Part shown: piece by piece, positions 20,243 to 23,877 of the stretch
How the letters are laid out: the number at the start of each line of letters is the position of its first letter
Position numbering within the stretch: position 1 is the first letter of the stretch
The notes under the pieces: model-generated
Databases searched by the model: none
What the model was told of the DNA's origin: nothing
Seen by the model: the letters and a program-made list of their open reading frames with translations, nothing else
Translations under genes and position numbers: made by a program
NCBI GenBank assembly: GCA_937981575.1
Contig: CALJNR010000026.1
Coordinates: 62,001-126,000 of the forward strand
Origin: an uncultured Clostridia bacterium
GTDB taxonomy: Bacteria > Bacillota > Clostridia > Lachnospirales > Cellulosilyticaceae
DNA: 64,000 nt
Reading direction: 5' to 3'

Positions 20243-21625
20243 ATGACAAACCTTAATTCCTTATTCAATAAGAAAAAAATACACTTTATCGGTATTGGCG
20301 GTATCAGTATGAGCGGACTCGCAGAGATTGTTCATAACAGAGGTTTTATTGTAACAGGCTCTGATATGAAAAGCTCTGAAACGACCCGCCATTTAGAAGA
20401 TATAGGCATTCAAATATATTACAGCCACAGTGCAGAAAATATAGCTTCTGATGTGGATTTAGTCGTTTATACTGCTGCTATTGCAAAAGATAATCCTGAA
20501 CTTGCTGCCTGCAGCGAAATGCATATCGATTCTGTTTCCAGGTCAAAATTTCTTGGACTTATTATGAAGGATTATGCTTTTCCAATCTGTATTGCAGGAA
20601 CCCATGGAAAAACCACTACAACTTCAATGCTGACTCATGGCCTGCTGGCTGCTGATCTTGATCCTACCGTTACAGTCGGTGGAATACTTAAAGCTATAGA
20701 AGGCAATATCCGCATAGGAAAATCAAATTACTTTATTACAGAAGCCTGCGAATATTGCAACAGCTTTTTAGATTTTTTCCCTAAAATCGGAATTATCCTC
20801 AATATCGAAGAAGACCACTTAGATTATTTTAAAGATATCAACCATATTCGTGATTCCTTTCAAAAGTTCGTAGCGTTGATTCCAGCTGATGGGTTTTTAG
20901 CTATTAATGGAACCACTGAAAATCTTGCTGAGCTTTTGGCCCCCGTAAGCTGCAAAACAGAAACCTTTGGTCTTAACCCAAGATTTAACTGGTATGCTGA
21001 AAACATCACGTATGATGATAAAGCCTGTGGTTCTTTTGATGTTTATTATAATGGGGTGATTAAAGGACATCTTACACTCAATGCTCCTGGCATTCACAAT
21101 GTGCTTAACGCCTTGTCTGTATGTGCTGTATGTCATTATTTAGATATATCAATCAATGTACTTAATGATGGGCTTATACATTTTTCAGGTGCGAATCAGC
21201 GTTTCGAAATCAAAGGGAAAGTACATAACATTACGATTGTGGATGACTATGCTCATCATCCGACAGAAATCGATGCTACCCTCAAAGTCGCAAATGCTTA
21301 TCCGCATCATAATCTTTATGTAGTCTTTCAGCCCCATACGTATACCCGTACAAAAGCATTTCTAAATGAATTTGCTGCTTCTTTATCTCAGGCAAAAAAT
21401 GTAATAATCGCTGATATTTATGCTGCCAGAGAAAAAAATCCTGGGGATATCTCAGCCGAAGATATTGTCAAAAAAATCCACAGCCTTGGCAAAGAAGCTC
21501 TTTATATTTCTGATTTTGACGAAATTGCTAATTATCTGCTCGAACATGCAGTTCCTAACGATCTTATCATTACAATGGGAGCCGGAAATATTAATCAAGT
21601 TGGTGATATCTTGCTCGGAAAATAG
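20243..21625 (+). CDS. murC: UDP-N-acetylmuramate--L-alanine ligase
   Basis: Adds L-Ala to UDP-MurNAc, the first peptide step of peptidoglycan synthesis in the cytoplasm. Order of motifs: N-terminal UDP-binding IHFIGIGGISMSGLAEI, central ATP site AGTHGKTTTTSML, NIEEDHLDYF, HNVLNALSV and the C-terminal DDYAHHPTEIDATL. Length 460 is normal. AAAGGA stands before the ATG. It is a single gene ended by a terminator at 21699-21735 and does not sit in a dcw cluster. Confidence 0.97.
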   Translation: MTNLNSLFNKKKIHFIGIGGISMSGLAEIVHNRGFIVTGSDMKSSETTRHLEDIGIQIYYSHSAENIASDVDLVVYTAAIAKDNPELAACSEMHIDSVSRSKFLGLIMKDYAFPICIAGTHGKTTTTSMLTHGLLAADLDPTVTVGGILKAIEGNIRIGKSNYFITEACEYCNSFLDFFPKIGIILNIEEDHLDYFKDINHIRDSFQKFVALIPADGFLAINGTTENLAELLAPVSCKTETFGLNPRFNWYAENITYDDKACGSFDVYYNGVIKGHLTLNAPGIHNVLNALSVCAVCHYLDISINVLNDGLIHFSGANQRFEIKGKVHNITIVDDYAHHPTEIDATLKVANAYPHHNLYVVFQPHTYTRTKAFLNEFAASLSQAKNVIIADIYAAREKNPGDISAEDIVKKIHSLGKEALYISDFDEIANYLLEHAVPNDLIITMGAGNINQVGDILLGK

Positions 21626-21699
21626 TTATCCACATTATCCACATTTTTGCAGCTTTTTATTTGTTAATATATTAAATACTTATCAACAGGTTATCCTCA
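21626..21699 (+). promoter_or_regulatory. DnaA-box cluster upstream of dnaD-dnaI
   Basis: Two perfect TTATCCACA boxes lie back to back (21626-21634 and 21635-21643). They are followed by TTATCAACA at 21680-21688 (one change) and TTATCCTCA at 21691-21699 (one change). All are on the same strand within 75 bases, starting one base after murC. Confidence 0.75.
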
Positions 21700-21735
21700 A
21701 AATCTCTTTGATGTCCAGAGAGATTTTTATTTTTT
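21699..21735 (+). terminator. Terminator of murC
   Basis: AATCTCT with AGAGATT (stem 21701-21707 / 21719-21725) is followed by a T-rich tail TTTTATTTTTT on the plus strand. Confidence 0.75.
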
Positions 21736-21758
21736 GTTGTCATATTTTCCTTTTTTTG

Positions 21759-21767
21759 TGCTATAAT
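21759..21767 (+). promoter_or_regulatory. Extended -10 promoter of dnaD-dnaI
   Basis: TGCTATAAT is a perfect extended -10 box. A possible TTGTCA lies 19 bases upstream, longer than ideal. The predicted start is about 35 bases before the dnaD ATG. Confidence 0.6.
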
Positions 21768-21809
21768 ACTAACACATGCAAAAGGATAATTTTTCAAGGA
21801 GGTTTCAAA

Positions 21810-22883
21810 ATGGCATATATAAAATGTTTAAAACCCAAACAGACATTTGTACATCTTCCTTATTGGTTTGTGGTAGACTATATGCCTAAAGCACTGGGAG
21901 GCTATTTAAAAGTATATATTTATTTATTTGCACTCTCAAATAGTTCTTGTGAATCTGATTTTTCTTTAGAAGAAACGGCTGTGGCCCTGGATATGCTCTA
22001 TTCAGAAGTTGTTCAAGCCTTAAAATATTGGGATAAAGAAAAAGTACTTTGTTTCAAGGAATCAGCTAAGAAACAATTTGAACTTCAGTTCTTTTTAGAA
22101 AAACCAACAAAATTTCAAAGCGATTTAGAGGCTGATCTCCCTTTATCAAAAACACTTATCAGCCATACAAGACCTGAGTATCGAACCGAGGAGATCAATT
22201 TGTATATTAAAGACAGCGCCAGTGTGGCTAAACTTTTCAAAATAGCTGAACAGTATTTAGGAAGGCTGCTTACCATTACAGACCAAAAGATACTTTACAG
22301 CTTTTATGACTGGTTACATATGCCTTTTGATCTTATTGAATTTCTTATTGAATATTGCGCATCCAGTAACCATACAGCTATACATTATATCGAAAAGGTC
22401 GCTATCAGCTGGGTTGACGCTGGAATTAATACTGTCGAAAAAGCCAAAGAAAAGATAGCCCTCGACCGAAGATATTTTAAAATATTATCCGCTCTCGGCT
22501 CAACTAAAACAAGCATTACGCTGGCAGAAAAAAAATGCATTGATAAATGGCTGAATGATTATGCTTTTAATATAGAAGTTATCTTGGAAGCCTGCAGAAG
22601 AACTGTTATGCAGACTAATAAACCAAGTCTCAATTATGTTGACTCTATTCTTCTTTCATGGCATCAGTCAAAAGTAAAAAATCTTGATGATGTTACCCTG
22701 ATTGATAAAGCTTTTGAAAGCAAGCGGCAAATTGCCTCTCAAGATATGTATCAGCCTAAACGACCAAACAAATCAGCTAAATTTACAGATATTTATTCTC
22801 ATAACTGGAACTTTGAAGAATTAGAAAAGTTAGAAAGCGAATATATTGATCGGAAATTAAACGGAGGTAAATTGCGTGAATAA
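21810..22883 (+). CDS. dnaD: DnaD-domain primosome protein
   Basis: Replication initiation/restart protein that remodels DNA and helps load the helicase. The N-terminal winged helix (about 10-85) is followed by two DnaD/DnaB_2 domains. The first is around LYSFYDWLHMPFDLIEFLI with YIEKVAISW; the second ends in the hallmark YVDSILLSW (YxxxIxxxW). 357 residues. The true start is the ATG at 21810 after AAGGAGG; the open frame running back into murC is not part of it. It overlaps dnaI by eight bases, which supports translational coupling. Naming follows the domain; DnaB-like function is possible. Confidence 0.9.
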   Translation: MAYIKCLKPKQTFVHLPYWFVVDYMPKALGGYLKVYIYLFALSNSSCESDFSLEETAVALDMLYSEVVQALKYWDKEKVLCFKESAKKQFELQFFLEKPTKFQSDLEADLPLSKTLISHTRPEYRTEEINLYIKDSASVAKLFKIAEQYLGRLLTITDQKILYSFYDWLHMPFDLIEFLIEYCASSNHTAIHYIEKVAISWVDAGINTVEKAKEKIALDRRYFKILSALGSTKTSITLAEKKCIDKWLNDYAFNIEVILEACRRTVMQTNKPSLNYVDSILLSWHQSKVKNLDDVTLIDKAFESKRQIASQDMYQPKRPNKSAKFTDIYSHNWNFEELEKLESEYIDRKLNGGKLRE

Positions 22884-23877
22884 CAAAGAGTTTCATTACA
22901 AACGCCTCATTAGAGAATATGACATTAAGCGCACATCAGCGGCCAAAGACCAACTTAAGAGAGCTAAAGAAGTTTATGAAAAAATTCCTCAAATCGAAGA
23001 AATAGATAAACTTTTAAATACAAACGGCATTCAGCTGATACGCAGCATGCTGTCTGCTCCTTTAAATACTTCTGTTGATGACTACCGTAAAAACTCTGAG
23101 GATCTTATATTTACAAAAAAAATGCTGCTTGTTGAATCCGGCTTTCCCGAAAACTATCTGGACATCACCTACAGCTGTCCTCATTGCAAGGATACCGGCT
23201 TTATAAATACCGAACCATGCACCTGTTTTAAACAAGGGCTTATCAACATTGCTTATGAGCAGTCGAATTTAAAACATATTCTGCAAGTTGAAAACTTTAA
23301 TACTTTTAGTCTTGATTATTACTCTAAACACATTGATGAAAAAAGCAGCAAATCACCTCACAGCAATATGGAAAGAATTCATCAGATCTGCGTAGGTTTT
23401 ATAGAAAACTTTGAAACTGAAAAACAAAATCTTTTGTTTTATGGTCATACAGGTCTTGGCAAGACGTTCTTATGTAACTGCATTGCTAAAGAATTACTCG
23501 ATAGAAATTATACCGTTCTTTATCTTACCTCCCCTCAGCTTTTTAAGCTCTTTGAAGAATCCAGGTTTCACCGTGATGATATGATGGATGAAGCAAAGGC
23601 TATGCTGAGCACACTCTTTACAGTAGACCTTCTGATTATTGATGACCTAGGCACTGAATCAGCTTCATCTTTTACCGGAAGTGACTTATTTGATGTATTA
23701 AATACAAGATACCTTCACCAGCATCCAACTATTATTTCAACAAACTTAGCCCCTAACGATTGGAATAAATATTATTCCGAACGTATCGTATCTCGGGTCT
23801 TCGGAAATTATACAAACTTAAAATTTATTGGTTCAGATATCAGACTCCTGAAAAAGTATAAAAATAAAGTATTATAG
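22876..23877 (+). CDS. dnaI: Helicase loader DnaI/DnaC-like AAA+ ATPase
   Basis: Loads the replicative helicase onto single-stranded DNA. An N-terminal helicase-binding region with a zinc-type cysteine cluster (CPHCKDTGFINTEPCTC, near 100-116) is followed by an AAA+ core with Walker A GHTGLGKTFL and Walker B LLIIDDLGTE. It also has the sensor/arginine-finger region IISTNLAPNDWNKYYSERIVSRVFG. 333 residues. The start is GTG, eight bases after GGAGG, inside the end of dnaD. A terminator follows at once. Confidence 0.93.
   Translation: MNNKEFHYKRLIREYDIKRTSAAKDQLKRAKEVYEKIPQIEEIDKLLNTNGIQLIRSMLSAPLNTSVDDYRKNSEDLIFTKKMLLVESGFPENYLDITYSCPHCKDTGFINTEPCTCFKQGLINIAYEQSNLKHILQVENFNTFSLDYYSKHIDEKSSKSPHSNMERIHQICVGFIENFETEKQNLLFYGHTGLGKTFLCNCIAKELLDRNYTVLYLTSPQLFKLFEESRFHRDDMMDEAKAMLSTLFTVDLLIIDDLGTESASSFTGSDLFDVLNTRYLHQHPTIISTNLAPNDWNKYYSERIVSRVFGNYTNLKFIGSDIRLLKKYKNKVL

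Follow-up and report, generated by a model that had tools for sequence, protein, structure and literature searches.

A cluster of DnaA boxes lies at the 3' end of murC in a 64,000-nt stretch of DNA (the window) from an uncultured Clostridia bacterium. Conservation strongly supports a DnaA-binding cluster under selection, and it is probably ancestral to most of the bacterial order. With moderate confidence, it is read here as a non-oriC control element to which DnaA would bind and so influence when initiation occurs, much like the DnaA-box clusters of B. subtilis and datA of E. coli. What remains of it in the source species is one tandem pair with two weaker boxes.

The arrangement given in the preliminary description, two perfect abutting boxes after the murC stop followed by two one-mismatch boxes on the same strand, was confirmed to the coordinate. 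The murC gene (20243..21625, + strand; three Mur ligase domains, Pfam PF01225, PF08245, and PF02875), to whose 3' end the element is anchored, terminates in a TAG at 21623-21625. Immediately 3' of this stop is box 1 (21626-21634), a perfect TTATCCACA, which is abutted at a 9-bp pitch by box 2 (21635-21643), also a perfect TTATCCACA; these two make up array 1. Boxes 3 (TTATCAACA, 21680-21688) and 4 (TTATCCTCA, 21691-21699) have one mismatch each and are likewise on the + strand; box 4 belongs to array 2, with which box 3 is also counted in the source family. Directly against box 4 is the stem of what is probably the intrinsic murC terminator (21699-21727, + strand; fold -12.7 kcal/mol, z -3.9), which had been overlooked: the boxes precede it, and it separates them from a probable dnaD promoter (21737-21767, + strand). 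This promoter was found by a script scan, as TTGTCA, a 19-bp spacer, and an extended -10 (TGC-TATAAT); a stock promoter scan with spacers limited to 16-18 bp did not report it. The likely -10 is at 21762-21767, and TGTGCTATAATACTAACAC of the promoter is invariant in seven aligned sequences. Downstream are a dnaD-like gene (21810-22883, + strand) and, overlapping it, a dnaI-like helicase-loader ATPase gene (22876-23877, + strand); their DnaB_2 (PF07261) and IstB/AAA domains bear out the DnaD-type and DnaI-type assignments made earlier. An Rfam search of 21300-22100 for RNA elements gave just a sub-threshold microRNA match (19.9 bits against a cut-off of 70).

Single boxes are close to background frequency. 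The window contains 31 with at most one mismatch where 20.8 are expected, modestly above chance, and the 58 perfect boxes in the source genome (3.56 Mb assembly, 143 contigs) are no commoner than the 67 found for a reversed-pattern control, as might be expected if the boxes had simply arisen by chance in A+T-rich DNA. The cluster is nonetheless above background, because its abutting pair (searched as a pattern with one free base) occurs once in the whole assembly, and its control not at all. Among 400 dinucleotide shuffles of the window, none had an abutting perfect pair, and none had even three one-strand boxes (one mismatch or fewer) within 74 bp. The earlier statement that the cluster exceeds chance thus stands, and chance, which order-wide conservation (below) also contradicts, retains a negligible probability. 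In the dnaA region of the source genome, on another contig, boxes of this consensus also occur, two of them perfect and many with one mismatch, so the motif would be expected to fit this organism's own DnaA. The same genome contains two further five-box clusters (L038, 5320-5473, and L039, 6116-6316), of which one adjoins a chemotaxis-receptor-like gene and the other is upstream of cbiM.

Conservation was surveyed in 146 genomes, the source genome included; 141 have dnaD relatives. The tandem 18-mer (at most one mismatch) is present in 97 of the 146, while its reversed control is rare. The murC ends of 108 genomes were taken, with 38 left out, and 107 were readable (G050 starts after murC); each was scored from -30 to +61 of the end of MurC homology, on the murC strand, with 17,317 windows from the same loci as background. 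Within the order, 69 of the 107 murC ends have a box (background 1.6%), 54 a perfect one (0.13%), and 45 a 9-bp pair (0.03%). Outside it, 62 loci representing 38 families were read, and none has such a box at the murC end. Most murC-end boxes keep a constant distance to the point where MurC homology ends: the offsets +3 and +12 recur in ten families (f1, f4, f5, f6, f7, f8, f14, f21, f22, and f24) and in single genomes of f11 and f16. Being common in the order and missing from the 62 outside loci, the element looks like an order-specific feature, although genera are not independent samples. The check proposed earlier, whether relatives keep the cluster upstream of dnaD, comes out in favor as to conservation, but the register of the boxes follows murC.

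In an alignment of seven family genomes, five of them from the source genus, the boxes (above all 1 and 4) and the -10 region rank with the most conserved blocks. Box 1 is perfect in all five genus members compared; box 2 is perfect in two, with one mismatch in two and two in the fifth; box 3 is kept in four of the five; and box 4 reads TTATCC[TC]CA in all seven sequences. Boxes are absent from several f1 lineages (g5, g6, g9, and most of g3) and from the f13, f15, and f19 genomes read, and the element is therefore dispensable rather than essential. A link between box loss and loss of DnaA was considered and dropped, since most boxless f1 genomes keep DnaA. One single-contig genome, G012 (f1, g9), has a DnaI relative but no DnaA detectable with PF08299 or the source DnaA protein. 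DnaA does occur in other genomes of that genus, and its absence here could be genuine or reflect a gap in the assembly. In another, G008 (L138), the dnaA region has 25 boxes, 21 of them perfect, with two 9-bp pairs, and the murC end has none.

In its full form the module has a strong abutting pair followed, 12 bp past the second box, by a weaker third (consensus near TTRTCAACA); from first box to third is 21 bp, equal to two helical turns. As a 30-mer with this 9/12 pitch (three mismatches or fewer), it has 61 matches in 37 of the 146 genomes, against one for the reversed control; 43 of the 61, in 30 genomes, are at murC/dnaD. Many genomes have a second array downstream. From the start of array 1 to that of array 2 is 161-167 bp (sd 1.5) in 15 entries from f5, f6, f7, f21, f22, and f24; f14 and some f5 have a shorter spacing of 140-146 bp. 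The source genus is without the third box, the coding box described below, and the 164-bp spacing, and its array 2 is closer and weaker. A separate motif, GTTTACATAA, recurs at +62 to +65 after murC in f22 and f21, often again just before dnaD, and was not found at that offset in the source genus; it is possibly the site of another protein.

Several features tie the element to murC itself. In f24, f6, f7, and G065 the murC stop has been lost and the boxes are translated in frame as LSTLST, with little or no change to the 9-mers; L058 and several f8 genomes have the stop codon inside a box. These translated versions could suggest a repeat acting at the protein level, an LSTLSTELST tail of MurC merely resembling DnaA boxes. 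Elsewhere, however, the same 9-mers follow a stop codon, and array 2, which is intergenic, has the same 9/12 geometry; conservation of the boxes where they are non-coding contradicts a protein-level origin, which is very improbable. An extra box, TTATCAACA on the minus strand, lies 62 bp upstream within the codons for the murC LLIT motif, by synonymous codon choice. Counting just those loci where this motif was readable, the exact coding box is present in 40 of the 59 genomes with boxes, in 1 of the 25 without, and in 0 of 42 genomes outside the order. The ATA share of murC isoleucine codons is 31% in box-bearing genomes, against 36% and 42%, so ATA is no commoner overall. This overlap suggests that where DnaA boxes are under selection, the coding sequence itself can be affected.

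DnaA boxes block RNA polymerase in E. coli, and a DnaA roadblock behind murC might similarly end or trim its transcription and limit read-through into dnaD. The boxes are suitably placed, exactly at the murC end, in one orientation, and ahead of the terminator. An intrinsic terminator is already present in the source genome, however, and in f24, f6, and f7 the boxes are within the reading frame, so a strong block there would truncate MurC. On balance such a role is quite unlikely.

A more direct connection to the downstream genes was also proposed: DnaA at the boxes would regulate the dnaD-dnaI helicase-loader operon at the level of transcription, linking the supply of loader to free DnaA. Some observations agree with this. 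In the source genome the boxes precede the dnaD -10 by some 60-140 bp. Where a murC end adjoins dnaD, boxes are commoner (60 of 76) than elsewhere (9 of 31), a comparison confounded by relatedness. In G025, the array has stayed by dnaD, 250-270 bp upstream, with murC about 1 kb further off. Among f1 genomes, boxes and promoter are separated by a nearly constant 62-73 bp, as such control would predict, although close kinship predicts the same. Predicted DnaA boxes upstream of the dnaB helicase gene are also included in the Caulobacter DnaA regulon in the available portion of a review (PMC8203912). G025 and f1 are, however, exceptions: in general, the boxes neither travel with dnaD nor keep a constrained distance to its promoter. 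In f11, where murC and dnaD are apart, the boxes remain at murC in six of seven genomes, while none of ten dnaD loci has a perfect box and one has a single weak one. In f17, where the two genes are also apart, 2 of 11 murC ends have boxes. Of 35 dnaD loci scored as unlinked (G063, too short for scoring, was left out), six have any box; among these is G050, probably a linked locus truncated by a contig end. The distance from array 2 to the predicted dnaD -10 drifts between 49 and 156 bp (sd 34; two longer values set aside) in the same 15 entries whose array-to-array spacing is fixed. Boxless g3 members retain the same dnaD promoter, the terminator stands between boxes and promoter in the source genome, and one box is within murC codons. 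Regulation of dnaD-dnaI by DnaA, as first proposed, is thus weakened, and is best regarded as a tentative possibility, secondary to the DnaA-binding role; it may have been added where murC and dnaD adjoin. A MurC tree suggests that the unlinked families nest among the linked ones; its deep nodes are weak, and nothing here rests on it.

So many DnaA boxes beside helicase-loader genes might also suggest a second or backup replication origin. In the positive control, oriC loci of the order, runs of DnaA-trios are conspicuous next to dnaA in most of 17 cases (median shuffle p ~0); the 29 murC elements tested have no such signal (median p 0.5). Boxes next to DnaA-trios were thus not found at murC, and an origin there is hardly credible. 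The murC element shares with oriC of the same order its box consensus and the presence of many near-consensus boxes; oriC, however, favors a 12-bp pitch, with 23 pairs at 12 bp and 5 at 9 bp, and has DnaA-trios, unwinding motifs that the murC element lacks.

We infer instead a control element at which DnaA binds cooperatively and so affects initiation timing. It is carried by the last murC codons and 3' flank. Several DnaA molecules would occupy the strong abutting pair next to one another and extend from there to the weaker third box, which is two helical turns away from box 1. In many families array 1 could pair, perhaps by looping, with the second array ~164 bp away. The murC locus would thereby hold DnaA away from oriC, and as an early-copied locus might take up DnaA after initiation and delay the next round. 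In eight relatives with both loci on one large contig, murC-dnaD is 1.4-27% of genome length from dnaA; the source genome is too fragmented for this distance. With the locus in the origin half in most of the genomes measured, it would be copied early in most of them.

The closest parallels are the DnaA-box clusters (DBCs) of B. subtilis. Like these, the murC element is a TTATCCACA-type cluster outside oriC in a Firmicute, and several DBCs are likewise between genes. At murC, too, several boxes are clustered beyond chance outside oriC, with dnaA on another contig. Unlike the DBCs, the element is order-wide and extends into coding sequence. Neither murC nor dnaD nor dnaB-dnaI is among the strongest B. 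subtilis regions listed in the accessible text of PMC4447404, and that text describes no 9/12 triples or paired arrays. According to the accessible text of PMC5295017, joint removal of the clusters leads to early initiation, but of six deleted, the effect was strong just when all six were gone; a single cluster such as that at murC may therefore do little. The earlier proposal that the cluster may titrate DnaA as the Bacillus clusters do still gives the best reading, with conservation as strong support for a selected cluster; DnaA binding and the effect on timing are putative.

E. coli offers two further comparisons. datA is also a non-oriC DnaA-binding locus with constrained box spacing (PMC4585315 and PMC5295017, accessible portions); it needs IHF, for which a site lies between its boxes, has five boxes, and acts in DnaA-ATP hydrolysis; no homology to it is claimed for the murC element. 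DARS1 and DARS2 have a three-DnaA-box core (PMC4585315, accessible portion), which promotes ADP release, and the murC elements of relatives resemble it in having three boxes. The element could conceivably be a clostridial datA/DARS counterpart, in which two looped three-box modules of 9/12-bp pitch ~164 bp apart, extending into the MurC tail in some families, would alter DnaA activity or nucleotide state. This is unlikely.

Searches of a collection of open-licence papers found no description of DnaA boxes at dnaD or murC. The C. difficile origin paper, in its available text (PMC7561715), does not mention boxes at dnaD, and states that regulation of DnaA activity in that species is unknown. With clostridial DnaA control largely open, a conserved, alignable, non-oriC element of fixed geometry is a defined target, and box losses within one family offer natural comparisons.

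Tandem arrays also occur elsewhere in the order. A second conserved set is upstream of the ribosome hibernation gene hpf, in some cases beside a secA-like gene (L246, L248, L249, and L254 in f17; L251 in f5; L252 in f22; L255 in f14; L256 in f21); the hpf identification is supported by Pfam S30AE domains in all three genes tested. In L240, L241, and L242 (f1, genera g2 and g3) a tandem array plus third box separates a Dabb-domain gene from an amino-acid ABC transporter-like gene, and in L244 and L245 (f24) a tandem array is found between a GntR/TrkA-C regulator gene and a large membrane sensor-like gene.
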